Shown: piece by piece, positions 4,111 to 23,580 of the stretch
Numbering within the stretch: position 1 is the first letter of the stretch
Layout of the letters: each line of letters begins with the position of its first letter
Assembly: GCA_012031875.1 (NCBI GenBank)
Contig: JAAUSZ010000017.1
Span: 1 to 36,418 of the forward strand
Direction: 5' to 3'
Origin: Desulfobacula sp.
GTDB lineage: Bacteria; Desulfobacterota; Desulfobacteria; Desulfobacterales; Desulfobacteraceae
Length of the DNA: 36,418 nt
Program-made: the position numbers and the translations under genes
The notes under the pieces: model-generated
Databases searched by the model: none
Told to the model about the DNA's origin: nothing
The model's input: only the letters and a program-made list of their open reading frames with translations

Positions 4111-4121
4111 CTTTATCTCAT

Positions 4122-4143
4122 GCAGCCGCCAGAAGAGGGCTGC
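4122..4143. other. Small GC-rich hairpin downstream of mreD
   Basis: GCAGCC and GGCTGC arms flank a short loop about 40 bases past the mreD stop codon. It may be a terminator for the mre genes, or the end of the adjoining IS remnant. There is no strong T-run. Confidence 0.3.
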
Positions 4144-4184
4144 GCAATGTACTTACTAACAAATAACTGGCTGGATAATACAAG

Positions 4185-4706
4185 TTAATCCAACCTTCCA
4201 AAGATAGTTTGTTGTACCAAGATAATTAAGCCGGAAGCCAGAAAGCTAGAAATACTATGTTTTAAAATTTCCGCCCAATAAGCGTAAGTAAAAAATTCGA
4301 CCGAAAAGTAGAAAAATAAATGGATGAAAAGTAAGATACTCGTGTAGCGAATGAACCAAGCAAGACCCATTCTAGCTCGAGTTGGACTAAAATTAATGTT
4401 GTATCCTCCTTTTGGAGAAAGCCATCGAATGACACTGGCGCGAATGAAGGCAGTGAAAGTGGAAGCTGCTGCATGAATACCTAGCGAATCGTAAAAAAAG
4501 TCAACGGTCAATCCAACAACGAATCCCAATAAAATAACCAAACCTTTGGGCGTGCGCAAGGGAAGTAAAAAGATAAACAGTGGGTAAATCAAAAAATGAA
4601 AAGACCGCCAGTAACCTTCACCAATACGCACGTATTGTAGCACTAGCACTTGAAGCAGTACCAGCAAAACAAAGCGAACAATATTGGTCATAATAATACT
4701 ATTCAT
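4185..4706 (-). CDS. mreD: Rod-shape-determining protein MreD
   Basis: Integral membrane partner of MreC and MreB in the elongasome, which directs lateral wall synthesis. The 173-residue protein has about five hydrophobic segments. It begins MNSIIMTNIVRFVLLVLLQV and has the family's pattern of short loops (FLLPLRTPKGLVILLGFVVGLTVDFFYDSLGIHAAAS). MreD is poorly conserved; identity rests on this PxxxxxLLGFxxGLxxDxFxxxxGxHA-like segment and on its position directly after mreC, with an 8-bp gene overlap that implies translational coupling. Confidence 0.85.
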   Translation of the reverse strand: MNSIIMTNIVRFVLLVLLQVLVLQYVRIGEGYWRSFHFLIYPLFIFLLPLRTPKGLVILLGFVVGLTVDFFYDSLGIHAAASTFTAFIRASVIRWLSPKGGYNINFSPTRARMGLAWFIRYTSILLFIHLFFYFSVEFFTYAYWAEILKHSISSFLASGLIILVQQTIFGRLD

Positions 4707-5526
4707 CGGGTATTTCGCTTTCTAGATGACGGATTTCTTCTTTTTTTAGAAAATTGACGACGTAAACATACCGAATTTTAGATAAGTCTTCAAACAGTTC
4801 TACATCTATTTCATAAGCATAACTTCCCAACTCCTGACGAAAAGTATCCACGATTCCGATAGGAATACCTGTTGGAAAGATAGTAGAATAGCCTGTAGTA
4901 TGAATAGTATCTCCTACTAAAATATCTGCATGAAGTGGAATATCTTTAAGTAGCATCTTTTTAGGGTTTTTTCCACGCCAAACCAAAGGACCAAAATAGC
5001 CACTCCGCCTAATGGCAGCATTTACTTGAGCATTGCGATGCAAAATAGACATTACCTGCGCATAATTATCCGTCACCCGAAGTACGATTCCTACTGCTCC
5101 TTTTGACGTAATGACTCCCATGTGTTCTGAAATGCCATGTTTTTTCCCTCGATTGATAGTCAAATAGTTGTTGTTCTTATTAATAGAGTTATTAATAACA
5201 CGCGCAGATACGTACTTGTAAACTTGTGAAGTATCTTGAGGTAAGGAATCTTTAGGTTGAAAGGTGGGTTGCTGATACCTTTCTAACTCGGTGCGAAGCC
5301 GTGCATTTTCACTATTTAAACTATCTGCCCAAACTCCAATGTAGAAAAAACGCTTTACATCCCCTAGCACTTCATAGGTAGAGCCAACTATACGGTTAGC
5401 GGAACTGAACAAAATCAACTGTTGCTGGTCATTGAATAGCACTACAAAATAAAATGCAATACTTTCGAGCAGCAAAAGCAGCAAGATGTTGCCGAACCGT
5501 CCAAAAAGTATTATGAAGAAGCGCAT
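4699..5526 (-). CDS. mreC: Rod-shape-determining protein MreC
   Basis: Periplasmic scaffold of the elongasome. The protein has 275 residues, within the usual range. One N-terminal membrane helix (about residues 8-32, GRFGNILLLLLLESIAFYFV) is followed by a coiled-coil linker (about 70-90, NSENARLRTELERY) and the two beta-barrel domains, with the conserved NRGKKHGISEHMGVIT, GAVGIVLRV and GDTIHTTGYSTIFPTGIPIG segments. It starts at ATG 5526 and overlaps mreD by 8 bp. It lies 187 bp after mreB, so all three are probably transcribed together. No frameshift is seen. Confidence 0.93.
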   Translation of the reverse strand: MRFFIILFGRFGNILLLLLLESIAFYFVVLFNDQQQLILFSSANRIVGSTYEVLGDVKRFFYIGVWADSLNSENARLRTELERYQQPTFQPKDSLPQDTSQVYKYVSARVINNSINKNNNYLTINRGKKHGISEHMGVITSKGAVGIVLRVTDNYAQVMSILHRNAQVNAAIRRSGYFGPLVWRGKNPKKMLLKDIPLHADILVGDTIHTTGYSTIFPTGIPIGIVDTFRQELGSYAYEIDVELFEDLSKIRYVYVVNFLKKEEIRHLESEIPDE

Positions 5527-5643
5527 GATGGCAACTGTGTTCTAAGGAATGAATAATAGGCGTATGCAAACCATGTAAATCAACCCTGAAAGTCTGGCAA
5601 ATCATTTGAGCCTTACGATGACCGGGAGTTTAAATTTAGTTTA

Positions 5644-5681
5644 GCAATAGAAGCATTATGCTAACGATGATACTTTCTATT
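5644..5681 (-). other. Hairpin between mreB and mreC
   Basis: Arms GCAATAGAA (5644-5652) and TTCTATTGC (5673-5681) enclose a 20-nt loop in the mreB-mreC gap. No T-run follows, so it may modulate readthrough or mRNA stability and is not clearly a terminator. Confidence 0.3.
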
Positions 5682-5712
5682 GCCCAATTAAATTTTTAGT
5701 TTCCTTGTATTT

Positions 5713-6744
5713 CTAAACATTTTTCCTGTCAATCAAAAAAGAAAATCGGTCTGTATTTTTCAAAGCGATACCCGTTCCCCTGACTACTGCACGAAGTGGG
5801 TCATCCGCTACATGTACAGTAAGGCGAGTGCGTTGAGCGATACGCTTATCTAGTCCCCTCAACAAAGCGCCACCTCCTGTAAGGTAAATCCCCGTTTTGT
5901 AAATATCTGCTGCCAATTCAGGTGGCGTAGCCTCCAAGGCTTTCAGTACTGCATCTTCTACTTTAGAAATGGACTTATCTAAACAGCCCGCTATTTCTGA
6001 ATAATTTACAGTAATTTGCTTGGGGATACCTGTCATTAAATCACGCCCGTTCACTGCAATATCATCTGGTGGATTATCTAATTCCGTGAGTGCAGAACCT
6101 ACCTCAATTTTTATTTTCTCCGCCGTTCTTTCTCCAATTAAAATATTGTGTTGATGGCGCATGTAAGTCATAATATCACTTGTAAACTCATCACCAGCTA
6201 TACGAATGGATTGGTCACAAACAATACCTGATAAAGCAATCACCGCAATTTCAGTAGTACCACCTCCTATATCAATCACCATATTACCTACGGGTTCTTC
6301 TACATCTAGCCCGATACCCAGTGCTGCGGCAAGGGGTTCATATATTAGATAGGTTTCTTTTGAATCCACATGGTCAGCAGATTCAAACACCGCTCTTTTT
6401 TCCACTTCCGTGATGCCAGAAGGAATGCAGATTACCATTTTCAAATGGGAAAAAAGTCGTCTCCTTTTTCCAATCATTTGAATCATTCCTTTAATCATGT
6501 TTTCGGCCGCCGTAAAATCTGCAATCACGCCATCTTTAAGGGGACGCACGGTTTTTATACTTTCGTGGGTTTTTTCGTGCATTTGCATCGCTTTGTGTCC
6601 CACAGCTATGGTCTGCCCTGTTTTTCTGTCAATCGCCACAATAGATGGTTCGTCCACTACTATTTTGCCGTCTTGTATAATCAAAGTGTTAGCAGTTCCC
6701 AAGTCAATAGCCAGTTCCTGCGTAAATAAGCTAAAAAATTTCAT
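5713..6744 (-). CDS. mreB: Rod-shape-determining actin homologue MreB
   Basis: Bacterial actin that forms membrane-bound filaments and positions the wall synthesis machinery. Full length (343 residues). The actin-fold nucleotide motifs are visible: phosphate 1 DLGTANTLI (about residues 16-24), phosphate 2 NMVIDIGGGTTEIAVI (about 163-178) and the adenosine motif YLTGGGALLRGLDKRI (about 288-303). The N-terminal MKFFSLFTQELAIDLG is typical of Bacteroidota MreB. Start is ATG at 6744, with mreC and mreD following on the same strand. The unusually AT-rich 600-bp upstream region probably holds the operon promoter. Confidence 0.97.
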   Translation of the reverse strand: MKFFSLFTQELAIDLGTANTLIIQDGKIVVDEPSIVAIDRKTGQTIAVGHKAMQMHEKTHESIKTVRPLKDGVIADFTAAENMIKGMIQMIGKRRRLFSHLKMVICIPSGITEVEKRAVFESADHVDSKETYLIYEPLAAALGIGLDVEEPVGNMVIDIGGGTTEIAVIALSGIVCDQSIRIAGDEFTSDIMTYMRHQHNILIGERTAEKIKIEVGSALTELDNPPDDIAVNGRDLMTGIPKQITVNYSEIAGCLDKSISKVEDAVLKALEATPPELAADIYKTGIYLTGGGALLRGLDKRIAQRTRLTVHVADDPLRAVVRGTGIALKNTDRFSFLIDRKNV

Positions 6745-7282
6745 GCAATAAAAAAATTGCTCAAAGTTAAAAAATGAGGCAGTAACATAACGTGCTTCGA
6801 TTCATTCAATTCTTTATTTGGTTATTTTTTTTGTTCAAAATTATCTTTTGACCTATTTCGTAATTAATAGCCATTAATTGATTTTTTTATTTATGATTAC
6901 TGTTATTATGTATTCATTTTTTGTAGTTTATTTTTTATTATGTTGTTTAAAATGGATATTTCGTCTAAAGATTATATTTTATTTTGAATACTTATTAACG
7001 ATTTTTTGAAAAAAATATTAGTCAGAGCCGCAGCATAAAGTTACACAAGCAGAATGAATAATTTATAATTACGTTGCTTAAAACTTTGTCGCAAAGGAAA
7101 AGATTTTTTAAAACAAAAAAACAATGATAATCAAGAATTGCCCAATAAAAAGGGAATAGAGACTAATTTTTAGATCAAAACACCGTAATTAAGATTTACA
7201 GGTTGTGGGAGGAAGAAGTTGCTTAGGAGTGTCCGCCATTTAGATATTTGTAGATTGCATTGAGTATTTTGCAGGCAAGCCA
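6745..7282. other. Long AT-rich intergenic region upstream of mreB
   Basis: About 540 bases with no credible ORF. On the minus strand a TAACTTTG box (6769-6762), resembling the Bacteroidota -7 element TAnnTTTG, lies 18 bases before mreB, but the matching -33 TTG is not clear. Long A/T runs occur throughout. I see no RNA gene. Confidence 0.35.
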
Positions 7283-7334
7283 TTTATGCCTAAATTTGTG
7301 GAAGTGGTATGTTGTTCACAAATTTAGGCATAAA
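7283..7334 (-). terminator. 18-bp perfect inverted repeat after the protease gene
   Basis: TTTATGCCTAAATTTGTG at 7283-7300 is repeated in exact reverse complement at 7317-7334 around a 16-nt loop. It lies 26 bases past the stop codon of the minus-strand metalloprotease, so it probably ends that transcript. No long T-run follows it on that strand. Confidence 0.6.
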
Positions 7335-7359
7335 AGACATAAGCAACCCCATGATAAGG

Positions 7360-8828
7360 CTATTCCAACACGATTTTTCTTACAAATTGTTGATTGGCAA
7401 TAACTACCCTCAATAAATAAATACCAGAGGAATGGTTTTCGATTGGTATTTGCAGGGTGTTATTGAAGCTGCGCCCGTACTCGTTCCGCATCACTAATTG
7501 ACCTGTGATGTCATATAGTTCTACACGCAAATCATCTCTAATTATATCTTTTAATTCAATTTGCAAATAACCAGGAACGGCTAACAACGTTGGTGTGACT
7601 GTCACTTGGCGCTCATCCAAATTAATAGTAGCTGTTGCATCCAGCACCGTTGTAAATGAATTTCTTGATGAAAAAGTATTACAAGTGGAGTAATTATTGT
7701 AAGGCAAAATACGCCAATAGTATCTTCTATTTGAAGGTAATTCTTTAATTGTCAAATTAGTAGCAGTAATAATAGTATCCAATTCTAGTACGCTGAAGGT
7801 CGGAAGTCGGCTCACTTGAAGAATATAATTCGTCGCATTTGTGACGGGTAGCCACTCAAAAAAGATATTTTGAAAACCAACGCTTTGGTTATTCTCTGGC
7901 AGCGTTAGCGTGATTGGCGCATTTGCTTCAATAGGTGCGTCCGAGATAGTACGATTGATTAACCCCACTTTTTGACTAAAAATATTGGCACGCATCGCCT
8001 GAATTTGTTCAAGCGAAAAACGAGACTGGCAATTGTCGTCAGAATATCCCATAATGAATGAGCCATCAGAAGTAAAGCTCATGCCATTAGGGTCTATTTG
8101 CTGAATAGAACTTCTTTGCATTCCAGTACAGTTCCATCTATTACTTAAATAATCAGGTTGAGTATCACAGAATCTATCTCCTGCCTCTTCGCAATTGCTC
8201 TTATCTAATAATTCCACCAGAATAGAGTCGTTACCTCTTTTAACATATTTAGGTGCAGGTAATTTAAAATCATAATCTGAACTTTCTTCCCAACCTCGAA
8301 AAGTATGTGGCAGAGAAAGTGCATGTCCTAGTTCATGTGACCAAGTTCGTTCTCCAGAATTAGAGCAGCTATTCTGTACTACTACTGCAATTGAATTGAT
8401 ATTTGCATAACCACAAGCATTGGCAGCATTACTTACGAAGTAGCAATTCATCGTATTTACCACGTTATTTCTACTGCGCATCTCTGCTCCTGTAGTAAAA
8501 TTATCATGATTATACCATGCAGTGCGTTTTATGTATCGAATGTCTTTGATAAAAAACTGAATATTAGAACTTGCAAAGTCGTCATTTACTACACAAAGTG
8601 CGTCCAACAAATCACGGATGACAAAAAATCCTTGTCCTTCATCCGTACCCAGTAAATGAATAGTCATTGGTATATAAACCAATTCATTATTCCCTTTCTC
8701 ATAAAGATGAGGCTGTTCTTGATAGGTTCTAAGCCATTTATTGTCCTCATCGGGTGTGGCACAATAGTTTTTTGGGCGTAAATACATGTGGATAGTGCTA
8801 ATAATAGGATGCTCAACCAAATTTTCAT
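7360..8828 (-). CDS. Secreted M43-type (pappalysin-like) metalloprotease, T9SS type A; frameshifted near start
   Basis: Zinc endopeptidase of the cytophagalysin/pappalysin family, likely extracellular. The true start is ATG at 8828 in another frame, giving MKIWLSILLLALSTCIYAQK, a clear signal peptide. One A is missing from the run near 8770 (CCCAAAAAAC), after which the frame continues NYCATPDEDNKW. Corrected length is about 489 residues. The zinc site HELGHALSLPH (H165, E166, H169, H175 in corrected numbering) is followed by FCDTQPDY and by SFTSDGSFIMGYSDDNC, which has the Met-turn seen in this clan. A fibronectin-III-like module follows at about 300-390. The last 75 residues (LRVELYDITGQLVMRNEYG ... 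GIYLLRVVIANQQFVRKIVLE) are a type A T9SS sorting domain. The gene stands alone and a hairpin follows it. Confidence 0.9.
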
Positions 8829-9125
8829 ATAATAATTATGATTTTATCAACATTCAAGGATAATTATGAAATCACACAGAAACTACAAATAAACGCGATT
8901 TTTCCCAAATAGATTGAATAAAAATTTGATTTTTAAGTAAAAATATAAAAATTTTTAACCGTTATTCATAACGTGATATTCTTCTGGGAATGTGTAATAA
9001 ATAAAATATCATTTTACTTTTACAACTCATCTATCATCAAATAACAACTCGCAATTCATTACTCCTGATTTACATCTCATCATCTATCGCTGTTCTTTTT
9101 AATATGGTTTAATCGTCTGACCATT
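8829..9125. other. AT-rich gap between hisA fragment and protease
   Basis: Just under 300 bases, very AT-rich. I see no ORF, RNA gene or clear promoter box. Confidence 0.4.
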
Positions 9126-9540
9126 TTAGAAAGCGTGGTAACTTTCGATATCCGATAAGGTGATTTTTCCCTCATAAATAGCTTTACCGACAATAGCCCC
9201 AAAACATTGCATTTCGGCAAGCCGAACAACATCGCTCATAGAAGAAACGCCGCCACTAGCAATCAATAATAGAGAGGGAATAGAACTCCTGATTTCTTGA
9301 TATAACTCCAACGAAGTGCCTTGCAGCATACCATCTTTAGCAATGTCGGTACAAATAGCATATCGCACTCCTTTTGAAACATAATCTTGTAGAAAAGAAG
9401 TTAACTCCAACTCGCTTTGTTCTTGCCAGCCATTAATTGCCACTTTTTTGTTTGCTGCGTCTGCACCAAGTATGATACGTTCCGCTCCATAGCTATCTAG
9501 CCAACTCAAAAAAGTAGAGGGTGCTGCATACAAACAAATT
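9126..9540 (-). pseudogene. hisA: hisA 3' fragment (ProFAR isomerase), first half missing
   Basis: HisA interconverts ProFAR and PRFAR in histidine synthesis as a single (beta/alpha)8 barrel of about 240 residues. Only the C-terminal 135 or so residues are here: PSTFLSWLDSYGAERIILGADA, then VAINGWQE, YAICTDIAKDGMLQG with the second catalytic Asp, and LLLIASGGVSSMSDV. The homologous frame can be followed upstream only to about 9540, where a TAA stop interrupts it. The missing 100-plus residues (the first catalytic Asp and the first phosphate loop) are not in any frame of the 106 bases before the next gene. The fragment could not be active alone. It is either a genuine deletion or an assembly join; two hairpins lie exactly at the break. 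Confidence 0.85.
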
Positions 9541-9559
9541 TAAAGTATTTTTGCTAGTG

Positions 9560-9640
9560 GACGCACCAAGTTGAGCCTGTTTCATGGCTTGCTTGGTGCG
9601 TCTAAATTAGCACGTCAAATTCTTCAGACCTTTCGACGTG
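9560..9640. repeat. Two adjacent inverted repeats at the hisA break
   Basis: GACGCACCAAG (9560-9570) pairs perfectly with 9592-9602 around a 21-nt loop. CACGTC (9611-9616) pairs with 9635-9640. They fill the space between the SIMPL-like gene and the broken hisA. They could be terminators for the SIMPL-like gene, although neither has a T-run, or scars of a rearrangement. Confidence 0.55.
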
Positions 9641-9646
9641 AATGGC

Positions 9647-10339
9647 TTACAACAATTCATACATGAACTTCATGGATTTGCCGTAATAGATTTTAAAACT
9701 GTTGTAATTGATGGAAAAACCGATACTCGCGCCGTAAGATTCTGCATAACCGTAGAAATTAGCAGTATTGCCATCTTCTACGATACCAACAATTTTTCCA
9801 TGTTTTACGCCTGCTGCTTTACTCAACTTAGTGATTTGTTGTTCTGCTTTTGTTGTTAATTTAGCCAAGACTTTACTTTCAAAATCGAAGTTGGTATCTG
9901 GTTCTATCGTGACGATGTTCCCCGTGACATAATCTAGTGAACCTAGTTTTTCGTAGAACTTCAAAAATTCACTTTTGCTTTTTAATGTTACTAAGAAACC
10001 GTTGCTGAACTCTCGGTAGCTAGGACTAGTTGCATACAAATCTGTGCGGTAAGGCGTAAACTGTAATTTGTTTGCCTTCAGTAGTACTTCTAGTTCTTGT
10101 CTTTTTTGTTGGATTAGGCTGGTACGGGCTTTTTCAATAGCTCGTGTATCTGGTGCTACTTCCTGGTTTTCATAGAATCCAGCTTCGTACAATTCTGTGG
10201 AAATGGTTAATTGATACAAAATTGCTTTCACAGGGACTTCAACCGTATCAGAAACGGTTATTTCTAGGTGTTTGCTTTGTGCAAAAAATACATTTGGCAG
10301 CGTCAACAATAATACAAATAAGCACAATTTAGTTGTCAT
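9647..10339 (-). CDS. Exported SIMPL/DUF541-like protein
   Basis: A 230-residue protein with a signal peptide (MTTKLCLFVLLLTLPNVFFA, cleaved near AQS). The mature part begins KHLEITVSDTVEVPVKAILYQLTI and contains a long helix rich in Lys, Glu and Gln (about 65-95), then IVTIEPDTNFDFESKVLAKLTTKAEQQ. This arrangement recalls the SIMPL (DUF541) family, whose members are envelope proteins of mostly unknown role. The match is by pattern only, and a different Bacteroidota periplasmic family is possible. ATG at 10339. It is followed by hairpins and the broken hisA. Confidence 0.6.
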   Translation of the reverse strand: MTTKLCLFVLLLTLPNVFFAQSKHLEITVSDTVEVPVKAILYQLTISTELYEAGFYENQEVAPDTRAIEKARTSLIQQKRQELEVLLKANKLQFTPYRTDLYATSPSYREFSNGFLVTLKSKSEFLKFYEKLGSLDYVTGNIVTIEPDTNFDFESKVLAKLTTKAEQQITKLSKAAGVKHGKIVGIVEDGNTANFYGYAESYGASIGFSINYNSFKIYYGKSMKFMYELL

Positions 10340-10522
10340 AATAAAACTATTGATTCAGTTAATAATGACTTTTAGACGAAAAATAGTTGTAAATGTTTCG
10401 CGTCCAATAAATTGACTTTTACACACTTTCTTTAAATTTACTGAAAAAAGATAACGCATTCGTAAATACAGCGTGTAATCTGTAACGCTCAAGTGATATT
10501 TCCGATATCGAAACCAAACTAT

Positions 10523-11290
10523 TTACTTTAAAAAAATCAAAATTGCTCCCAACGCGGTCAATATCAGGACCATGCGGCGATAATATTTTTCTTTGATGAT
10601 TTTTACTAAATAAACACCTACCCAAAGCCCTAATGCAATAAAAGGTAATGCCACCAGATTAATAGCAAGTGACTGCCAAGTAATTGTTTTCCAAACCACT
10701 ACATGAAAAGGCACTTTAAATACATTGACTAAAAAAACAACCATGCGGAAGTGCCGATGAATTGCTCTTTGGAGTATTTCATTGCTAGGAAATAAAATAT
10801 TAGCGAACGCGCCTCCCACGTTTCCAACCATCGTGGTGAAGCCCACAAAAAGTCCAGCAACGACTGAGAACCAAGTTCTATTCGGAACTGTAGCATCTTT
10901 TTTCTGCTCCAACCAAAGCAAAATCAAGATACTGCTTAAAATAATTCCTGCTAAAGCATATTTGAAGCCTGCTTCTGGCATATCTTTTCCTATCCAAACA
11001 GCAAGTAAAATGCCAAGCACAATCCATACGGCGAGCTTGCGTAAATGATACCATTTAGCAGCCCGATTGTAGTACCATACAGAAAAAATATCTCCTACAA
11101 GAAGCATTGGAAGTACAATTCCGGTGGATGCTTTACTGCCTAAAATGATTGCCATAATAGGGACTGCAAAAATATCAACACCTTTTACGCCTCCTTTTGC
11201 AAGTGCGAAAATGAAGGCGCAACAACAAACTACTCCCCACTGAAAAGGCGTGAGTGCGTAAGCATTTAACGCAGAAGTAAAATCAGACAT
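10523..11290 (-). CDS. TSUP/TauE family membrane permease, with internal compensated frameshift
   Basis: Putative anion or organosulfur exporter of the TauE/SafE (TSUP) family, inner membrane. The N-terminal half has the family's FALAKGGVKGVDIFAVPIMA loop and there are about eight hydrophobic segments. I prefer ATG at 11290 (MSDFTSALNAY) over the upstream TTG at 11311. Between 10800 and 10733 the protein reads ILFPSNEILQRAIHRHFRMV, which is foreign to the family. Removing one T near 10800 and adding one T near 10733 gives IYFLAMKYSKEQFIGTSAW, then LFFLVNVFKVPFH, the expected family sequence. This is a pair of compensating homopolymer errors, so the true protein is intact. Substrate cannot be told from sequence. 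Confidence 0.8.
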   Translation of the reverse strand: MSDFTSALNAYALTPFQWGVVCCCAFIFALAKGGVKGVDIFAVPIMAIILGSKASTGIVLPMLLVGDIFSVWYYNRAAKWYHLRKLAVWIVLGILLAVWIGKDMPEAGFKYALAGIILSSILILLWLEQKKDATVPNRTWFSVVAGLFVGFTTMVGNVGGAFANILFPSNEILQRAIHRHFRMVVFLVNVFKVPFHVVVWKTITWQSLAINLVALPFIALGLWVGVYLVKIIKEKYYRRMVLILTALGAILIFLK

Positions 11291-11439
11291 GAGCGATAAT
11301 ATTATTCGCAACGAAGGTAGGAAATTTATTGTGGCATTAACTAAAGGTACAAAATTACTGGCTCATTTATAAATAATATGAGTAGTAGATTATGAACTAA
11401 TCATGTAATGATGAATAGATTGTAAAAAATCTGCTTTAT

Positions 11440-13473
11440 TTATGCTTCATTTCTAAGGGTTTTAGTTGCAATACTTGGATCTATCGCTTTTGCTTGCTCA
11501 AACATAGACTGGGCTTTAGCTGCATCCCCGAGTTGTCCATAAGCTGCTCCCAAATTATAAAGAATGCCAGCTTGGTTAGGTGCTATTTTAGCGGCTTGTT
11601 CTAATACGTTGATGGCATCTGTCACTCTGTTGCTTATGCCATAGGCAATACCTAAAAGTCGCAGTATCTCTGGATTGTTAGGCGCAAACTGATTACCAGC
11701 TTCCAGATAAGCAATGGACTTGACTACATCATTTTGTTGTTCTCCATAATATTGCCCAGCGTCCCTGTAAGTGATGGTCAAGTTGCTACGGGCTTCCTCA
11801 TAGCCTCCATCTAATGCCAAGGCTTGTTGATAAGCATTGACAGATTCATCATATAATTTTAAATAATTATTCGTATTGCCCAATAACAGATAAGCATTTT
11901 TATAAGTTGGGTGAATTTTGATGGCTTCTAGCAAATGTCCTTTGGCTTCCAAGAACATATTGCGCTGTGTGATGGCATCTTTTTCTTTAACAGCTTGCTC
12001 CAAAAGAACGCCAGCCGTGCCGTTTCGCAATTTTGCACTTTGGTGAGAAACATTAATATCAGTAGTAAAGAGCGTAAAATTATCTTTCCAAACTGTGTTG
12101 CGCGTGATAGTTTTGAAACTAAACAGCACAATAAGAACGCCAAATACGACAGTAATGACTGGGTGTAGTTCGTTAGTTTTGTTTTTCGTTAGCCATTGGC
12201 TGCCTCTCCAGAGCAACACGGATACTAAAAAGCAAAACCCAACAGAAGGCATAAATAAAAAGCGTTCCCCCATATTTGTTCCAATCGGGAATACAACATT
12301 GGAGACAATAGAAAGTGTCATTAAATAAAGTAAAATAGCATAACTTAAAAAGTCTTTCTTTGGCAATCTAATCAACGCAAAAATCGTCATACTCACATAT
12401 CCTATTGCACTGATTAACACGCTTATATCGCTCCAATTCATCATAGCCACGTGTCTCGGATAATAGTCGTGGGTGAGCGGATGAGGGAAAAATAGTAGTT
12501 GAATATACTTACCGAGTGTAAACATCACCGTAGCCGACCACTCTTCAAAACTAAATTTTTGCCATTCATTCCCGACTAATTTAAGGAATGGATTATTCAT
12601 CAACTCTAGTGCAGGCTCGTCAAACTCTGCTTTAATAATGGAAAAACGAATTATAAGAAAAACCAAACTAGCCATCCCTAATGTCAATAAAGGAGGTAAG
12701 AATCTACTGAATTGTTTACTGCGAAATATAAAGAAACTAAGTGGTGCCACTCCTAAAAACGTAATAGCATTTTCTTTGGAAAATAAGCCTACTAAAAAGA
12801 GCAGAAACACAGGAATTAATAGCAACCCTTTCTTTTCGTCAGTTGCCCGAAAAGCAAAATACAGCGCACCAATGCTACCTAGCAAAGTCATAATTTCATC
12901 CAAACCCTTGATGTTGGCAACGGCTTCTACATGAATAGGGTGGGTGGTAAAAAGTAGGGTAGTGGCAAAAGCTAAAAATCGGGCTTGTTTTTGCTCTACC
13001 AGTGGCTGAAGCATAATCGAAAATAGCAAATAGAGTACCACGCAAGTTAAGGCAAACCAAAGCACATTCATCAGATGGAAAAAAATAGGATTATCCCCAA
13101 AAAATTCCCAATACACTGCAAACAAAATCAAAGTGAATGGACGATAACGACCACCTGCTACGAGGTTAGCTTTCCCTTCTTCCTTAAAAAAACCAAAAAA
13201 TGTATCGTACTTCAGGATGCCAGGAATACCTTCTATACCTTTTTGGGTGAACATATTTTCTTGAATTACAATAGCATCGTCTTGAGTATATTCGTGACCT
13301 ATGGTGTTTGCATAGAGCAGCAAAGCAGTGAGTGCAGTAAAAAGGATGTGGTAAGTTTTGTTCATCCACCAAGGCGTATGGGTGCTGGTGAGTATTGGTG
13401 CAGCAACTACTGGTTGTGGAACTACGACTTTTTGCCGAGCTGGTTTATTTTTTGAAGGATGCTGTTTTGCCAT
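11440..13473 (-). CDS. GT-C membrane glycosyltransferase with C-terminal TPR repeats (TMTC-like)
   Basis: A 677-residue polytopic membrane protein. The N-terminal half has about ten transmembrane helices. Its first extracytoplasmic loop contains the GT-C acidic pair (YTQDDAIVIQENMF), and HPIHVEAVANIKGLDEIMTLLGS is a motif shared with TMTC-type O-mannosyltransferases. The C-terminal third (from about 500) holds at least four TPR units (for example AYLLLGNTNNYLKLYDESVNAYQQALALD). Lipid-linked sugar transfer to exported proteins is the family inference; the substrate is unknown. Start is taken as ATG 13473 (MAKQHPSKNKPARQK), not the TTG at 13479. A good Bacteroidota promoter lies just upstream. 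Confidence 0.8.
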   Translation of the reverse strand: MAKQHPSKNKPARQKVVVPQPVVAAPILTSTHTPWWMNKTYHILFTALTALLLYANTIGHEYTQDDAIVIQENMFTQKGIEGIPGILKYDTFFGFFKEEGKANLVAGGRYRPFTLILFAVYWEFFGDNPIFFHLMNVLWFALTCVVLYLLFSIMLQPLVEQKQARFLAFATTLLFTTHPIHVEAVANIKGLDEIMTLLGSIGALYFAFRATDEKKGLLLIPVFLLFLVGLFSKENAITFLGVAPLSFFIFRSKQFSRFLPPLLTLGMASLVFLIIRFSIIKAEFDEPALELMNNPFLKLVGNEWQKFSFEEWSATVMFTLGKYIQLLFFPHPLTHDYYPRHVAMMNWSDISVLISAIGYVSMTIFALIRLPKKDFLSYAILLYLMTLSIVSNVVFPIGTNMGERFLFMPSVGFCFLVSVLLWRGSQWLTKNKTNELHPVITVVFGVLIVLFSFKTITRNTVWKDNFTLFTTDINVSHQSAKLRNGTAGVLLEQAVKEKDAITQRNMFLEAKGHLLEAIKIHPTYKNAYLLLGNTNNYLKLYDESVNAYQQALALDGGYEEARSNLTITYRDAGQYYGEQQNDVVKSIAYLEAGNQFAPNNPEILRLLGIAYGISNRVTDAINVLEQAAKIAPNQAGILYNLGAAYGQLGDAAKAQSMFEQAKAIDPSIATKTLRNEA

Positions 13474-13496
13474 ATCCAATCATATTTGATTGGATG

Positions 13497-13526
13497 CAAA
13501 GATAGGGAAAACATTTTAATTCCCAA
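13497..13526 (-). promoter_or_regulatory. Bacteroidota-type promoter for the TPR glycosyltransferase
   Basis: On the minus strand, TTG is followed after 19 bases by TATCTTTG (13504-13497), matching the Bacteroidota -33/-7 pattern TTG-N19-TAnnTTTG. The -7 box is 24 bases before the ATG. A small palindrome (CCAATCA / TGATTGG) sits between the box and the start codon and could affect translation. Confidence 0.6.
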
Positions 13527-13532
13527 TTGTTC

Positions 13533-13572
13533 CAAAAAAGGAAAGGAGCAGTAAAGCTATACTACTCCTTTC
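13533..13572 (-). terminator. Rho-independent terminator of the RRM gene
   Basis: Arms 13541-13552 (GAAAGGAGCAGT) and 13561-13572 pair with one mismatch. On the minus strand the hairpin is followed by a run of six T (13539-13534). It lies 20 bases after the RRM stop codon and just before the next gene's promoter. Its AT-rich context looks like the Bacteroidota side. Confidence 0.8.
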
Positions 13573-13592
13573 TTGATGCTCAAATTATTGGA

Positions 13593-14003
13593 TTATGACC
13601 AACGATCATCGTCCTTATCTTTACTCCATTTGTCATCGAAATCGCGCTTGCCGCCCTTATTTCTTTTGAAATCGTCGTCACGGAAACCACCACCGCCGCC
13701 GGTTTTACCGCCGCCGCCGCCATAACCGCCTCTCCCACCGCTTCTCCCGCCGCTATTTTCAGTGCGGGGACGGGCTTCGTTCACATTCAGGGCTCTACCT
13801 TTCAGTTCTTTGCCGTTGAGGCCTTCGATGGCAGCCTGGCCTTCTGCTTTGGAAGCCATTTCTGCGAATCCGAAACCTTTTGGCCGGCCGCTGTCCCTGT
13901 CTTTTAAAATGGTGACGGATTCAACCTGGCCGAAGGCTTCCAGTGCCTGCCGCAGGTCATCTTCTGTAACCTCGTATGACAAATTCCCTAAATAGAGCTT
14001 CAT
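13593..14003 (-). CDS. RRM-domain RNA-binding protein with Gly-rich tail (likely chimeric)
   Basis: A small single-RRM protein of 136 residues, related to the bacterial Rbp family that binds single-stranded RNA. The start is ATG at 14003 (MKLYLGNLSYEVTEDDLRQA) with GGAGAAAAGG just upstream; the longer frame to 14105 has no support. RNP2 (LYLGNL, residues 3-8) and RNP1 (KGFGFAEM, about 44-51) are intact. After NEARPR comes a Gly/Arg-rich segment (about 86-107), then an acidic/basic tail ending KDKDDDRWS. The RRM half uses G+C-rich codons and resembles deltaproteobacterial versions, whereas the tail, stop and terminator look AT-richer and Bacteroidota-like. I suspect the contig join lies inside the Gly-rich stretch, so the protein may not exist in this form. 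Confidence 0.85.
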   Translation of the reverse strand: MKLYLGNLSYEVTEDDLRQALEAFGQVESVTILKDRDSGRPKGFGFAEMASKAEGQAAIEGLNGKELKGRALNVNEARPRTENSGGRSGGRGGYGGGGGKTGGGGGFRDDDFKRNKGGKRDFDDKWSKDKDDDRWS

Positions 14004-14486: not shown

Positions 14487-15503
14487 ATGAAAATTAATAT
14501 TGCAATCAATGGATATGGAAGGATCGGCCGCTGTGTAGCCAGGGCCTTATATGAATCCCCGCATTTTTATGACCGGATCAGGCTCTGCGCGGTCAATGAA
14601 ACCGCGGACCCTAAGGCGGTCTATCATTTGACCAAATATGATTCCACCCATGGCCGGTTTCCCTTTGAGGTGAAAAATAAGAATTCGGCGTTGATCATCG
14701 GCGCGGACACCATTAAACTCTTCCAGGAAAAAAATATTGTCAACCTTCCCTGGAAGGACCTGAAGATTGATGTGGTCCTTGACTGTACAGGGGTTTATAA
14801 GAACAGGGAATCCGCGGAGCTGCATCTTCTGTCTGGGGCCAAAAAGGTGATTTATTCACAACCGGCCGCGGACGAAGTGGATGCCACCATTGTCTATGGT
14901 GTGAATCATCAGATACTGAAAAGGGAACATGCGGTGATCTCAAATGCGTCCTGTACCACCAATTGCGTCATCCCGGTCATCCATGTCCTGGATCAGGCTC
15001 TGGGTATTGAATGCGGGTCCATCACCACCATTCACTCGGCCATGCATGACCAGCCGGTCATTGACGCGTATAACCCGGATTTGAGAAAAACACGGTCCGC
15101 CCTTCAATCCATTATCCCTGTGAACACGGCCCTTGAAAAAGGGATTTCAAAGATCCTGCCTTCCATGGCCGGCCGGTTTGAAACCTTGGCCATCCGGGTT
15201 CCCACCACCAATGTGTCCATCATGGACATCGCCCTGGTGGTGAAGACGGATACGGATGCGGAAATGGTCAACAGGGTTCTGGAACTGGCGTCGATGGATG
15301 AATTGAAAGATATCCTCGGGGTCAGTGATGAATATCTGGTGTCCTGCGATTTCAACCATGACCCGAGATCTTCCGTCATTGACCTCCACCAGACCCGGGT
15401 GAGCCGGAAACGGCTGGTAAAGGTCCAGGCCTGGTTTGACAATGAATGGGGGTATTCCAACCGGATGCTGGATACCACCATAGCCGCGGTTGAGGCATCC
15501 TGA
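14487..15503 (+). CDS. epd: Erythrose-4-phosphate / glyceraldehyde-3-phosphate dehydrogenase (Epd type)
   Basis: NAD-dependent aldehyde dehydrogenase of the GAPDH fold, 338 residues. The Rossmann motif INGYGRIGR (7-15), catalytic Cys156 in SNASCTTNC and His183 in TTIHSAMHDQ are intact. The stretches HSAMHDQPVIDAYNPDLRKTRSA and VSCDFNHDPRSSVIDLHQTRVS match E. coli Epd more closely than glycolytic GapA, as I recall these sequences. Epd makes 4-phosphoerythronate for pyridoxal phosphate synthesis, but related enzymes also act as GAPDH, so the substrate is uncertain. The ATG at 14487 has only a weak ribosome site. It is convergent with cooC, two bases apart, so it is not part of the acs operon. 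Confidence 0.85.
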   Translation: MKINIAINGYGRIGRCVARALYESPHFYDRIRLCAVNETADPKAVYHLTKYDSTHGRFPFEVKNKNSALIIGADTIKLFQEKNIVNLPWKDLKIDVVLDCTGVYKNRESAELHLLSGAKKVIYSQPAADEVDATIVYGVNHQILKREHAVISNASCTTNCVIPVIHVLDQALGIECGSITTIHSAMHDQPVIDAYNPDLRKTRSALQSIIPVNTALEKGISKILPSMAGRFETLAIRVPTTNVSIMDIALVVKTDTDAEMVNRVLELASMDELKDILGVSDEYLVSCDFNHDPRSSVIDLHQTRVSRKRLVKVQAWFDNEWGYSNRMLDTTIAAVEAS

Positions 15504-16790: not shown

Positions 16791-17696
16791 TCAAATCTCC
16801 AGCCACGAATCTGAATAAAGGGTTTCACCCATGATGACCTTATAGGTTTTGAAATAATCCTGTAATTCTTTGCTGAGGCTTGAGATATTGGGTTCATTGC
16901 CGTCCATCATGCCATAGATGAGATCGACAATATCCTGGCGCTGACCCTTGGCAATGGCTGTGAGCTGCTTGTCCAGAGGATCTGAAATAACGGATTTCAT
17001 GCCGTATTTTTCCAGCATCACCATATAGGTCTGGTTCAGGATGCCGCGCAGGTGCTCAGGCGGACCATTGGAAATATTAGAAAGGCCGCAGGTGGATTTG
17101 GCGCCCGGCGCAATCTCTTCCAGCATCATCTGGAAATTCATGAGGCTGATGGATTGCTGCTGCTGAATATTGACCGGGGTGACAATGCCGTCCACCCAGA
17201 TTCTTTCATTGGCAATCCCGGCTTCATTGGCAAAATAAATGAGTTCAACAGCCAGGGCCGCTCTTTCATTTTCATCCCTGGGAAGTCCCTCGGGTCCCCA
17301 CATGAGGGCAACAAAATCCGCATCATACTGGGCTGCCAGGGGAACCATTTTTTCATATCTTTCCGGCCTTGCCATGATGGAATTGATGATATGGGGTTTT
17401 GAGGCCGGTTTGATGACCTTAAGCCCGGCTTCAATGGCATCGATATTGGATGTATCCAGAAGCAGGGGCATCCCCGGAACAGCCTCCTGAACGACATTCA
17501 CCACCCAGGGCATTAATTCCGTACCGAATTTTTTTGCCGGACCAAGGTTGATGTCGATATAATCCATGCCCAGTTCTTTTTGACGAACCACTTCTTCCTG
17601 AATGGGTTTAGGATTACGTTTGGCTGGATCCGGCTCTTTGAATTCCTTTCCAATGACCCTGGAAATGACGTTCAGACTTTCACCAAATAGTATCAT
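16791..17696 (-). CDS. acsE: Methyl-THF:corrinoid iron-sulfur protein methyltransferase AcsE
   Basis: Moves the methyl group between methyl-tetrahydrofolate and the cobalt of the AcsCD corrinoid protein. It is a TIM-barrel pterin-binding enzyme related to the MetH folate domain. At 301 residues it is somewhat longer than the Moorella enzyme (about 262). Family segments visible: ILFGESLNVISRVIGKEF at the start, MDYIDINLGPAKKFG, PLLLDTSNIDAIEAGLKV and STCGLSNISNGPPEHLR, with the Asn of the pterin site in GLSNISNG. Start ATG 17696 follows AAGGAAGAGAAC. It is separated from acsC by a GC-rich hairpin and followed by the operon terminator. Confidence 0.95.
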   Translation of the reverse strand: MILFGESLNVISRVIGKEFKEPDPAKRNPKPIQEEVVRQKELGMDYIDINLGPAKKFGTELMPWVVNVVQEAVPGMPLLLDTSNIDAIEAGLKVIKPASKPHIINSIMARPERYEKMVPLAAQYDADFVALMWGPEGLPRDENERAALAVELIYFANEAGIANERIWVDGIVTPVNIQQQQSISLMNFQMMLEEIAPGAKSTCGLSNISNGPPEHLRGILNQTYMVMLEKYGMKSVISDPLDKQLTAIAKGQRQDIVDLIYGMMDGNEPNISSLSKELQDYFKTYKVIMGETLYSDSWLEI

Positions 17697-17733
17697 GTTC
17701 TCTTCCTTTTATAATTATATGTTACATGGCTTT

Positions 17734-17751
17734 GCCGGGGCCCGCCCCGGC
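17734..17751 (-). other. GC-rich hairpin between acsC and acsE
   Basis: GCCGGGGC (17734-17741) and GCCCCGGC (17744-17751) form a perfect 8-bp stem with a 2-nt spacer directly after the acsC stop. There is no clean T-run, so it more likely protects or processes the acsC 3' end than stops transcription. Confidence 0.65.
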
Positions 17752-17760
17752 TTTCAAAAA

Positions 17761-19101
17761 TTAGCGCGATTTCAGGAATGCAGGAATGTGAGCCGCTTCT
17801 CTGGGTCCCACCGTAATGGTCCAGCCCGGAAGCTCTTCTTCCACATCGCCGGCTATCGCGGCTGCATAACCCGGGATAATCAGTTCCTTATGTTTGACCT
17901 TGTCCATGATGCCGCTCTTTTTGACAAAGGCGCCCACATCGTCACCGCCGAATTTGCCGGCAGCCCAGGCTGTAAGAACGGAAAGGCCTTCAGAATCCTT
18001 CACCAGGAGCCAGGCCGGAATCTTGCTGGCCTCGATTTCACCGGACACAATAAAATAGGTCAGGGCGAAATTGGTGGTAACCAGAACCGGTGAGTTCTCA
18101 TTGGGATTGCCGATTTCAAAGATACCTTCAACCACGGTCATGGGCCTCTGGGGATCGGTAAAGATGTTCAGCCGTTCCAGGAGGAGGGGGAAGAGGGATT
18201 CCGTGCTGAAGTCGGACATGACCACAATTCCGCCGTATTTGGCCACAAACATGCCGGCGATGAGGGTTTCCATATCCAGGTTGGAGGCCATTTCACAGGG
18301 GAAGGTGATGGTCGGAAAGCCCAGGGCCTTGTTCCCTGCCTTCAACGCGGCGCGGCGGATGGCCACCTGGTCCTCAAGGGCCTGTTTGATTTCCCTTGAA
18401 CCCGGATCAATGACCAGATCTTTCAGGCCCATGCCCGTGAGTTTGGTGGTCAGGGGGATGAGGGCGTCCACAGAGGCTGCCTTTACCACCAGGGGAAGAT
18501 CACTTTCTTTGGCCAGTGCGCCCATAGCATCCACATTGGCTGCGGTTGCCCCGCAGAGGAGCGGACGTTTGAATCCGGCGGCTTCGATACCGGCCTTCAT
18601 GACATCAACATTTTCCGTCATGAGCACCAGGTTGAATTCGGATTCTTTGGCAATCTTGCCTGCAACGGCTGCAAAGGCGGCGGCGCCGTTTCCGGCATCC
18701 TTTACCACCAGCAGTTCAGGTCTCAGATTCAACCCCACGCGTTCATACTGGAAGGCATTATAAATTTTCAGGGTCTTGTCCAGTTTTGCCGCATCCATGT
18801 CTGAAGAGACGGTGGCGGCAAGGATAGTGGGGTTGAAAAATGTTTTTTCATGTCTGTAAAGAACGGTTTCACCGCCAGTTGTGGTCTGGCGCACGCCTTT
18901 ACCCAGTTTGACGGGGCGGATGGGGGGAGCGGAAGCTTCCGCCAGTTGAGCCTTTGCTTCTTCGGAAACATAGGGGCAACTGTCCAGCTCAGCCTTGCCC
19001 GATGCAAGATTCATTGCAAAGGCAAGGCAGGTCGGAACTCCGCACTCCTTACAGTTTGTTTTGGGGAGGAGTTTGAATATCTGTATACCGGTTAATGCCA
19101 T
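17761..19101 (-). CDS. acsC: Corrinoid iron-sulfur protein large subunit AcsC
   Basis: Gamma subunit of the corrinoid protein that carries the methyl group on cobalt to acetyl-CoA synthase. 446 residues, as usual. The N-terminal 4Fe-4S domain has Cys17, Cys20, Cys25 and Cys42 (TNCKECGVPTC ... SCPYV), the same spacing as in Moorella. A central TIM barrel (about 100-320) and C-terminal B12-binding domain (about 330-446) follow, ending in GPREAAHIPAFLKSR. It starts at ATG 19101 after AAGGAG. A long hairpin separates it from acsB, suggesting differential expression of the two within one transcript. No frameshift is seen. Confidence 0.95.
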   Translation of the reverse strand: MALTGIQIFKLLPKTNCKECGVPTCLAFAMNLASGKAELDSCPYVSEEAKAQLAEASAPPIRPVKLGKGVRQTTTGGETVLYRHEKTFFNPTILAATVSSDMDAAKLDKTLKIYNAFQYERVGLNLRPELLVVKDAGNGAAAFAAVAGKIAKESEFNLVLMTENVDVMKAGIEAAGFKRPLLCGATAANVDAMGALAKESDLPLVVKAASVDALIPLTTKLTGMGLKDLVIDPGSREIKQALEDQVAIRRAALKAGNKALGFPTITFPCEMASNLDMETLIAGMFVAKYGGIVVMSDFSTESLFPLLLERLNIFTDPQRPMTVVEGIFEIGNPNENSPVLVTTNFALTYFIVSGEIEASKIPAWLLVKDSEGLSVLTAWAAGKFGGDDVGAFVKKSGIMDKVKHKELIIPGYAAAIAGDVEEELPGWTITVGPREAAHIPAFLKSR

Positions 19102-19138
19102 TTTTTTCTCCTTAAGTTTTTAAAAAACCTTATGGTAG

Positions 19139-19180
19139 AGGCCCGGCAGCCTTAATCTGGTGTGATACAGCGCCGGGCCT
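19139..19180 (-). other. Stem-loop between acsB and acsC
   Basis: AGGCCCGGC (19139-19147) pairs perfectly with GCCGGGCCT (19172-19180). No T-run follows in the operon direction, so partial termination, processing or 3'-end protection of acsB mRNA are the likely roles. Confidence 0.65.
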
Positions 19181-19206
19181 TTCTATTGAGTTAATATCCG
19201 ATCCGG

Positions 19207-21419
19207 TTAACCTACAATGGGATCCATTGAAAGTGCAGGATGGCCTTTTTCCTGGAGGAAGGGAAGAATTTCTTCTTCGGTGATTCCAACGGTTTCATCG
19301 GCAATCTTGTCAAACAGATCCGGTATGCCCATGGCTTTGCCGCGGGCCACGATTCTGTCTTTCAATTCTTCTTTGAGCATCTTGGGCATCCAGACCATTC
19401 TCAAAAGGCCGCCATCCCCAAGAATAAATTTACCCTGGGTGATATTGTGTTTGGAATGGCCCACAAATCCCGGGGAGGAGGCCCCGCCGCCCATGACGCC
19501 GGCCAGGGTCGTAAACTTCATGCCGCAGGGGGTATCCCTGTATAATCACGGCCGACAGTCATCACCCCGTTGCAGGCCGGCAGCATGGCCGCGATACATT
19601 CGCAGCAGCCGCAGGTGGTCATGGGGTCAACAACCATGGAATACAGGTTATACCGTTGGATGGCGCCCCTGGAGGCTTTATTGACAAACTCATTCACCCC
19701 TTTCCACTGGCCCAGTTTCGGATCAAGGCATTCGCCTTTGATAATGGGCTGGTTGGGTCCGGTGGGATTGATTTCAAAGGCGGCCTTGCAGTCCATCCAG
19801 TTGTAGGCGCCGCAAAGTCCGGTTCTTTCCGGGCTGACGGTGCAGACATGGCTGGGGGCGAAGGACTGGCACAGGGTGCAGGAATAATAGGTTTCAACAT
19901 CATCATCCGTCATCTTGTCCACGCGTGCATCACGGGTCTGATAGTTGGCCCGGGCCGTTTCCGTCATCTTGTCCACATCTTCTTTGTTGGTATAAAGGGT
20001 GACCTGGACCTTGTCCACGATCTTGGTAAAATCCTGGTGGAATTTGGCATGGAGAACCACACCGATGTCCTTGAGGGTAAAGCCTTTTTCAATGGCGGCC
20101 TTGCTGATACGGATCCAGGAAATATCCCTTTGTCCGATATGCATGATGCCCTGGATATAATTGACCAGGTGGTGGATCTGGCGTTCCATGATGGGTTCAA
20201 AGTCTTCCTGGAATTCACGGCCCGCGATCTGGACGAAGATACCCAGGTTAAAACTGCCGCCTTCTTTGATGCCGGACAGATCCGGACCAATGATGGTGAC
20301 CTTGCCGTCTTCAACCGCGTTCATGTCGGCCATCTTAACCAGCTCGGTGCACTGGGTCTTTCCACCGCCGCACTGGGCATAGAGGTCTGCCCCGCGGACA
20401 CGTTCACCTTCATACGCGGGACCAAAGGCGCAGGGAATTTCAATATTGGCCACCTGGACCTTGAGACCCCTGACTTCAACAGACTTTTGAACCATGTCGG
20501 CATGGGCCACCGGGGCCACAACATGCTCATAGGTACAGATCCCCGTGGGCAGGATTTCAGGAATCGGTGTGTCGGCAATGGTGGGGAAGCCCCAGTTGAC
20601 GCAACCGGCCGCGGCCACGCCCCATTCGGTGCCGACATCGCCCAGGGCGTTGACAAAGGCAAATACCCGGTCTTTATTGTATTTCAGGATGGTTTTATAA
20701 TCACCCGGCTTTACACCGCCAAAGGCCATGGCTGCCCTGTTGGCAAAGCCAAGGGCGAATACGGCCGAGGAGATATCCGGCCCAAAGGGCACGATACGGG
20801 TGTTCCAGCCGACCTGCATACCTGCATCCAGGCACTGCTGGATCAGGGTTTTGCCGTTGTGGTTGGCAGCGCAGAAAATATAAAGAGACCGTTTCTGGTA
20901 ATCTTCCACGATCATCTTGGCAATTTCCTTGTTGGGCGCGGCGCCGACCATGGCGGCAAACCCGGGAGCGGAACCATCCACAAATTCAACCCCGCGTTTT
21001 CTCAGGATGGTGTCATCGGCCGCACCCACCCAGAGTTTACCGTTTTCAATATCCGGGTCTTCCTGGGCAATATAGAAATCAGGTTCATTCAGATATCTCA
21101 GGGCTTCTTTGACCTCATAGGATATAATGCCGGCCATACCGGCGTCCAATAGGGGTCCCAGGTACGGGAGCCAGTTTTTCAGTTTAAGGTGAGGGGGAAG
21201 CAGACCCCGGGCAAAGGCCATGGGTTTTTTAAGATCTTCCAGGGTTTCACATTTAAGACCGGTTAAAGAATAGATAACCGGCAGAAAGTATGCTGTGTTC
21301 GGGAATCCGATTTTTGTTGCGGCATCATAGGTCTGGAGCGCTTTTTCAAGTTCACCTTCAACCTGGGCGACTACTTTGTATCCACCCTGAATGGCAGCAA
21401 ATGCGATAAGTTTTGACAT
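19207..21419 (-). CDS. acsB: Acetyl-CoA synthase AcsB (ACS alpha subunit), frameshifted
   Basis: Joins CO, a methyl group and CoA into acetyl-CoA at the Ni-Ni-Fe4S4 A-cluster. All six A-cluster Cys ligands are visible: C514, C517, C526, C536 (CTLCQSF ... ERTGLC) and C603, C605 (CGC in TTCGCCECIAAM), a constant +8 offset from Moorella AcsB as I recall its numbering. The frame breaks near 19525, where one G is missing from CTGCGGCATG. Restoring it turns PPAA-stop into PPAGMKFTTLAGVMGGG and gives about 737 residues, the full family length, ending LPFLQEKGHPALSMDPIVG. Start ATG 21419 follows GAAGGAGG. It is a bacterial-type single-chain ACS with its own N-terminal CODH-docking domain. Confidence 0.95.
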
Positions 21420-21490
21420 ATTCTCTTCCTCCTTCGTTGAGGATTTAATTATTAGATTCTGTTAACATCCTGTTTTCCTCAGGACTCTTA

Positions 21491-23508
21491 TTATCCTTCC
21501 AGGGCCTGGCGATCCGCCATATCCATGAGAACTCTTTCCCTTGCCTTGTCAATGCCCAGGGCCTTTCTCTTTTTGTCGATATGGTCGATCATGAGCCATG
21601 CATGCTTGATGGGATCAGGTTCAACATCCCATTTTCCGCCATAGATCCCTTCCAGTTCCTTGGAAATATAATCATGGAAGACCGGGGCGCCGGATGTGGG
21701 CAGGGTTCCGCCGAATACGGTGTAGACACCGGAGGTGACAAAGTATTGGCCGATGGAGATGGCTTTTTCGCTCATCCATTCCGGTGCGCTGCCGGCTGCA
21801 GGGATATCGCACAGGTCGTTTCCGAGTCCGCCTGCCCGGATGACTTCCGTGGCAGCCAGAAGGATTCTGGAATTGTCCACGCAGGAGCCCAGGTGAAGAA
21901 CCGGGGGAATACCCACGGTTTCACAGACTTCGGCCAGACCCGGCCCACAGTATACCTGGGCGGCTTCCGGGGTCAGAAGGCCGTGGATGGCGGCGGTGAT
22001 GCCGTCGCAACCCGTGGTGAGAACCAGAACGTCATTTTTGATGAGTTCCTTGATGACCTTGATATGCATTTCATTGTGTCTGGATCTGGCGTTATTACAT
22101 CCGACAACCCCTGCCAGGCCGCGGATACGGCCGTTGATGATATTGTCGTTCAGGGTGTAATAACTGCCTCTGAAGGTTCCGCCCAGGTGGTATTTGATGG
22201 ATTCAACCCCAAAGCCGGCAATCTGGGTGGCTTTATACTGGGGAATCATGACATCCGCGCCACGGTTCTGGAAATTGTCAACGGCCATTTTAACGATGCG
22301 GGTGGCGTCTTCAAGGGCATAGTGCTCGTTGAATTCAATATGGATGACATTGTCCTGTTCCATTCTGGCAATGGGATGGGTGGTGATCAGATGGGTGTGG
22401 AAACATTTGGCCACATTGGCCAGGTTCTGCATAACACACTGGATATCCACCACCATGGCGTCGCAGGCCCCGGTGATAATGGCCAGTTCCTGCTGCAGGA
22501 AGTTACCGGCCGTGGGGATGCCGTGTCTCTGGAGCATTTCATTGGCCGTACAGCAGATGCCGCCGAGCTGGATGCCTTTGGCGCCCTTTGATTTGGCATA
22601 GTCCAGCATTTCCTGGGACTGGGCCACAGCCACAATGACTTCTGAAAGAACGGGCTCATGACCATGAACAATGATATTGACATGGTCTTTTTTCATGATC
22701 CCGAGGTTGGCTTCGGACTGGAGGGGATAGGGGGTGCCGAAGAGGATGTCCTGGAGATCCGTGGCCAGCATGGAGCCGCCCCAGCCGTCCGCCAGGGAGC
22801 AACGGGTGCATTGTTTGATCAGGTTCTTGTAATCCTGGTCCACACCCATATGGGTCCGGTGCATGATCTCAACAATTTCCCGGTCGATATTTCTGGGGAG
22901 AACCCCTTCTTTTACCCATTTGTCATAGAGGGGTTTGGGTGCGCGTTTCAGATAGAGCAGCTCGCCGGAGGATTTGCCCCATTCGTTCAGGGCCACTTCC
23001 GCCACTTCAAGGGCGATTTCATCAATATCCCGGTCTTTTGTTTCTCCATCCACTTCAACGGTGGTGGCCACATTCAGATGGGGGGCTACGGCCAGAAGTT
23101 TCTGGGTGTCCTTGATCTGATAGGCAGAGGTTTCTTTTTGGCCGCGGACATGAACACTTCGGCCACACAGCGGCCGTGGTCGGAATGGGCAGCCGCACCG
23201 GCAGCCACCATCCTGGCGAAGTTCCGGGCGGCAATGGTATTGGCCGTGGCGCCGCAAAGGCCCTTTCTGGTGTCTTCACCCTGGATCCCGTCTTTGGGAA
23301 GCGGGAGCCTGCAGGGTCCCATTGCACAGTTTTTACAGCAGATGCCCTGGATCCCTATATTACAGGGTTTCATGGCCACTGCCCGGTCGAAAATGGTTTC
23401 AACGCCGAGTTTCTGCGCCCTTGCAATCATTTCCTGGGTTGAGATTTCATATGATGCTTCTATCGGGTCAGCAAGTTTTGGTGCTTTTGCTTTTTTCTCT
23501 TCTTCCAT
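21491..23508 (-). CDS. acsA: Carbon monoxide dehydrogenase catalytic subunit AcsA/CooS, frameshifted
   Basis: Reduces CO2 to CO (and back) at the Ni-Fe-S C-cluster and passes CO by tunnel to AcsB. Cys49, Cys57, Cys58, Cys61 and Cys66 (PCNIGIQGICCKNCAMGPC) provide the B and D clusters. C-cluster segments such as IQLGGICCTANEML, VVDIQCVMQNL, HLGSCVDNSR and GCDGITAAIHG are present further on. The frame breaks near 23137 in a run of A: five are seen where six are needed. Restoring one gives VFMSAAKKKETSAYQIKDTQKLL and a full 672 residues. Start ATG 23508 with AGGAGG upstream. It sits between acsD and acsB with about 70-base gaps on each side. Confidence 0.96.
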
Positions 23509-23580
23509 TAGAGGTTCCTCCTCTTGATTATATATATGAATTGTTGTGCAGCAGATATTGCTGCATCAACTTTGCTGCCA

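Follow-up and report, generated by a model that had tools for sequence, protein, structure and literature searches.

A Desulfobacula draft-genome contig as a very probable chimeric assembly of two phyla, joined in the glycine codons of an RRM gene

Does a contig that changes its composition inside a single open reading frame (ORF) hold one genome, a genome with an acquired segment, or two genomes brought together by an assembler? The question is raised by the window analysed here, the entire 36,418-bp contig C96 of a draft genome of Desulfobacula sp. (G000; 4.95 Mb, 357 contigs, 87.4% complete, 6.0% contamination). A sequence-only reading of this DNA had placed a chimeric join inside a glycine-rich RRM gene and preferred it to a transfer of about 13 kb. 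I arrive at the same preference, on the strength of a native continuation of the gene on another contig (C81), a foreign left side and a duplicate mreB. With a rough probability of 96%, the contig is a metagenome misassembly, in which a Saprospirales-like piece was set on sulfate-reducer-type (Desulfobacterota) DNA inside a run of glycine codons. The features are collected in Table 1.

Table 1. Features of the window on both sides of the join
Feature	Position	Strand	Basis
Foreign segment, Saprospirales-like (Bacteroidota), GC 38.7%	1-13706		0/9 ORFs match same-genus loci; one gene traced to a lineage; tetranucleotides
Protein with SprB repeats and a CHU_C type IX secretion domain	173-1969	+	Pfam
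mreD, mreC, mreB of the foreign genome	4185-6744	-	Pfam, NCBIfam
Protein with Por_Secre_tail; Peptidase_M43 match just above cut-off	7360-8820	-	Pfam
679-aa protein, TPR repeats at C-terminus, adjoins the join	11440-13479	-	Pfam
Terminator-like 13-pair hairpin and T run, just 3' of the chimeric ORF, foreign side	13541-13572	-	Consensus scan
Foreign 3' tail of the chimeric RRM ORF (residues ~100-136)	13593-13706	-	36/114 ungapped identity to G016
Join, in low-complexity glycine codons (GGC/GGT); native bases end at ~13707	13693-13724		Alignment with G016 and G015; exact words common with Saprospirales RRM genes
Native 5' part of the RRM gene (RRM domain and start of Gly tail)	13707-14003	-	Identity to G016, G015, G020
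gap (GAPDH), host	14487-15503	+	94% aa identity to G016 and G015
CODH/acetyl-CoA synthase gene cluster, host	16791-25134	-	Pfam; collinear with G016
FTHFS to ispE, tRNA-Gln, prs, rplY, pth block, host	25618-36172	+	Collinear with G016:C18 except 27496-28676

In composition the two sides are clearly set apart, as had been claimed from the AT-rich DNA on the left and the G+C-richer DNA on the right. The GC content is 38.7% over positions 1-13700 versus 51.4% over 13725-36418, and the GC3 ranges are separate, at 0.30-0.38 in the left ORFs (9 of 9 measured) and 0.53-0.70 in the right ORFs (14 of 14 measured). Fitted with one change point, the GC content is best split at 13642 (log-likelihood gain 282). 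A comparison of tetranucleotide profiles, proposed by the sequence-only reading together with one of best-match taxonomy, also finds the sides to differ, the Z-scores correlating at 0.58 inside the left side and 0.64 inside the right, and at 0.16-0.28 from one side to the other. Each half of the left side was also compared with other loci, giving 0.60 and 0.71 for the Saprospirales locus L107, 0.26-0.52 for three other Saprospirales loci, and 0.05 and 0.13 for C81. As the fit to those three loci is weak, and as one right piece correlates at 0.45 with a Saprospirales locus (L051), I regard the tetranucleotide measure as supportive, not decisive.

The RRM ORF (13593-14003, reverse strand) encodes 136 amino acids, with an RRM_1 domain (PF00076; Pfam) at residues 3-72, a glycine-rich run at about residues 83-106 and, after it, a tail rich in K, D, R and W. 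The protein shows 96% amino acid identity to its counterparts in the same-genus genome G016 (residues 1-108) and in G015 (residues 1-104), and 99% to that of G020 over the first 84 residues. When the gene is aligned, ungapped, with that of G016, 274 of 297 bases are identical over 14003-13707 and 36 of 114 over 13706-13593, a drop at 13707 that amounts to more than compositional drift. The two halves of the gene do differ, then, and the break does lie exactly at its GGC-rich stretch, both of which had been claimed; the switch can now be set at about 13707, more sharply than the interval 13575-13760 given before. The last native bases of the gene on this contig are GGCGGCGGCGGCGGT, and in G016 the gene continues with more glycine-rich repeats, with GGQGGGRGR at the end of its product. 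The native half is typical of bacterial glycine-rich RRM proteins (PF00076; NF058537), and the match to the NCBIfam family NF058537, at 103.9 bits (cut-off 100), spans residues 3-80, within the native half only. The window ORF differs from these proteins in its last ~37 residues, which come from another gene. The consensus scan that found the hairpin behind the chimeric ORF returned 3 hairpins in the region, where shuffled sequences gave 1.6 on average (sd 1.1).

For the gene content, I compared 28 ORFs, picked among the 104 listed for the window: 9 to the left of the RRM gene, and 19 from the RRM gene rightward. On the right, 18 of the 19 (RRM gene to 36172) are matched in the fetched stretch of contig C18 of G016 with their order kept, 17 of them at 74-99% amino acid identity. 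The acs operon reported on this side is present (CODH/ACS genes by Pfam), and core genes are found on each side of the switch, as had been noted, with mreBCD on the left and prs, rplY, pth and ispE on the right. The exceptions to the agreement with G016 are FolD (27496-28353), which shares 36% identity with the gene next to FTHFS in G016 and has an orientation opposite to FTHFS, and a short ORF (28365-28676) without a match. The ORF adjoining FolD in 27496-28676 matches only the C-terminal half of FchA. Judged by these comparisons, the genes in 27496-28676 would be a point of local variation inside the genus. Frame shifts relative to single ORFs of G016 occur in five places on the right side (~16.0, ~19.53, ~23.1, ~30.54 and ~36.24 kb), affecting a 276-aa ORF, acsB, CODH, a 730-aa acyl-CoA-synthetase-like ORF and, as a weaker case, a 344-aa ORF at the contig end; these may be assembly or sequencing indels.

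Where, then, is the rest of the native RRM gene? A search of the draft genome with the G016 stretch from the RRM gene onward leads to contig C81 (13,736 bp), in which the match to the G016 RRM tail reaches the final base (13693-13736). On the reverse complement, the end of C81 reads in frame GGGRGGQGGGRGR followed by a stop, which is the native 3' tail of the gene. C81 aligns to G016:C18 in three main collinear pieces (10,341 bases at 95%, 1,245 at 88% and 833 at 93%), with ~176, ~618 and ~495 bases between the pieces unaligned, and just after the RRM gene there is ~1.1 kb in G016 versus 176 bases in C81. Since C81 ends in the native 3' tail and is mostly collinear with G016, it is the real continuation of the gene. 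The chromosome was thus broken in the glycine-rich tail in this assembly, with one side ending up as C81 and the other fused to foreign DNA. From the native part of the window to C81 the gap is ~56 bases of glycine-rich DNA in G016 numbering, a figure that is approximate owing to the repeat. Contig C54 of G015 likewise begins in the glycine-rich stretch.

To the left of the join, none of the nine ORFs is matched in the same-genus loci L042-L045 at the cut-off used (E ≤ 1e-5). These loci comprise the neighbourhood only, and two left proteins were therefore additionally searched in whole genomes. For these searches, the Saprospirales order is the order of G038, a Saprospiraceae genome, of which 198 genomes were sampled. 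The 679-aa protein is found at E ≤ 1e-60 in 123 of these 198 genomes and in 1 of 37 host relatives (G035, same order, 39% identity). Its best identity is 58% (G148), and in the family to which G148 belongs, 27 of 398 genomes have a match at E ≤ 1e-200. The named loci among its matches number six: two from Saprospiraceae, two from Lewinellaceae, one from Saprospirales and one from a Bacteroidota draft. By their matches, the right side goes with the same-genus genome G016 and the 679-aa protein with Saprospirales; this gene (11440-13479) is the sole one on the left traced to a lineage. The other eight left ORFs compared have no match in eight Saprospirales loci surrounding relatives of the 679-aa gene, so the left gene order is not conserved there. 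The Bacteroidota type IX secretion (T9SS) signals described from the letters were recovered by Pfam as Por_Secre_tail, CHU_C and SprB domains. At 9126-9533 (reverse strand), the ORF codes for no more than the C-terminal half of a HisA-like protein, and upstream there is no open continuation in the same frame; a frame break on the foreign side is likely.

The mreB on the left is at most 50% identical to the mreB of 24 of 25 host relatives, and G015 (56% complete) is without mreB. A second mreB of the draft genome lies on contig C247. It shares 92-93% identity with the mreB genes of G009, G013, G012 and G006 and 47% with the left copy; by these identities, the gene on C247 is the host-type one. 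What distinguishes a chimeric metagenome contig is therefore seen here in two respects, sides of different lineages (with one gene, the 679-aa one, traced on the left) and a native continuation elsewhere in the same assembly (G000:C81).

Alternatively, the left side may be the product of a real transfer, in which inserted Saprospirales-like DNA, 13.7 kb or more of it, split the RRM gene and C81 carries the remnant of that gene beyond the insertion. A contig ending in the RRM 3' tail would be expected in that case as well, and the fusion in the RRM ORF is in frame. However, such a segment would hold the housekeeping genes mreBCD though the host has its own mreB, its composition is unlike that of the host, and in G016 the RRM gene is uninterrupted and adjoins GAPDH. 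It would also have entered at the very repeat where the assembly of G015 breaks. Nor does the left side have the make-up of a horizontally acquired island, as the nine ORFs compared there, up to the contig end, show neither a host match nor a mobility family, no integrase or transposase being found among them by Pfam. Duplicated housekeeping genes, nine ORFs free of mobility families and a repeat at the join together make a real insertion unlikely, and I would grant it only a very slim chance. That some cells of the population truly carry such an insertion from another phylum at the RRM glycine codons, 13.7 kb or longer and with mreB, mreC and mreD, seems less likely still. Least credible of all, to the point of being negligible, is one genome with an ordinary compositional boundary and an intact, native RRM gene with a species-specific tail: the ORF is open across the join and RRM tails vary inside the genus (G020 versus G016), but the native tail sits on C81, whose collinearity with G016 speaks against its being a contaminant, the gene adjoining the join matches another phylum, and the two mreB genes come from two lineages.

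For the preferred chimeric assembly, the following course can be envisaged. An assembler leaving the Desulfobacterota-type chromosome would enter the GGC-rich glycine codons of the RRM gene, a stretch that would be common, word for word, with a glycine-rich gene of a co-occurring Saprospirales-like bacterium, and it would exit into the genome of the latter, so that the native half would stay behind as C81, starting in the same glycine-rich tail. While the switch point, the foreign character of the left side and the continuation on C81 are shown, I infer that a short word common to both genomes served as the bridge in the assembly graph and that the underlying data were metagenomic. RRM genes of Saprospirales, searched in 14 genomes (29 matches in 13, the partner genome itself not among them), carry long GGC/GGT runs. 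The longest exact words that they have in common with the join region measure 20 bases at 13711-13730 (L136), 18 at 13707-13724 (L140), 17 at 13708-13724 (L142) and 21 at 13681-13701 (L143), and all of these fall in the glycine-rich part of RRM genes of relatives, not of the actual partner. The 21-base word codes for GGGGGFR, as in the foreign tail, and lies on the foreign side of the switch. Of 56 stretches of 130 bases sampled in the window, the one at the join has a longest word of 21 bases; none of the 55 others exceeds 15, and the median over all 56 is 12. With words of up to 21 bases at the join versus up to 15 in the control stretches, a walk of the graph through a shared word is plausible.

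That the bridge connects two RRM genes, as the sequence-only reading had it, holds in part. The join is glycine-rich and its words recur in RRM genes of Saprospirales, but the foreign tail is without a matching relative in the 198 genomes of that order. The 35-aa tail gave no match at E ≤ 0.1 in any of these 198, in a search that had no positive control, and in 27 of the closest Saprospirales genomes, where the positive control (G000) scored 2.7e-16, five had chance-level matches (E 0.23-2.89), with no glycine-rich or RRM-like protein with such a tail among the ORFs overlapping them. None of the RRM protein tails in 28 of the 29 Saprospirales loci (L161 was left out) equals that of the window, and none of eight Saprospirales loci has an RRM gene beside the 679-aa gene when queried with the window RRM protein. 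A charged tail with W does end some RRM proteins of the order, such as DNDRWE in the closest genome (G148), RDNNRW in G284 and DYDSWDE in G289. The left partner was probably an RRM gene too.

Chimeric contigs arising from shared k-mers have been described for closely related species (PMC7299287). The present contig is like the inter-genome chimeric contigs of short-read metagenomes set out in that source in that it holds two genomes, with the switch probably inside a common stretch; here the native continuation that was broken off survives as a contig of its own. It differs from them in that the species described there are closely related, whereas the sides of C96 belong to different phyla and the stretch is the glycine-codon run of an RNA-binding protein gene. 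The breaks at C81 and at G015:C54, together with the join on C96, suggest that the glycine-codon runs of RRM genes can act in assembly both as contig breaks and as bridges across phyla.

As an assembly mistake, C96 would be an artefact and not new biology. It is a matter of data quality all the same, as a draft genome that represents its species carries about 13.7 kb from another phylum, and because this DNA is foreign, its T9SS-type proteins and mreBCD should not be credited to the genus. In the draft genome, Por_Secre_tail has one match, on C96; among 25 relatives, it is found above the cut-off in G013 and below the cut-off in G027. The match in G013 (L126; G013:C213:901-1107) may mean that Bacteroidota DNA is present in one more genome of this genus.
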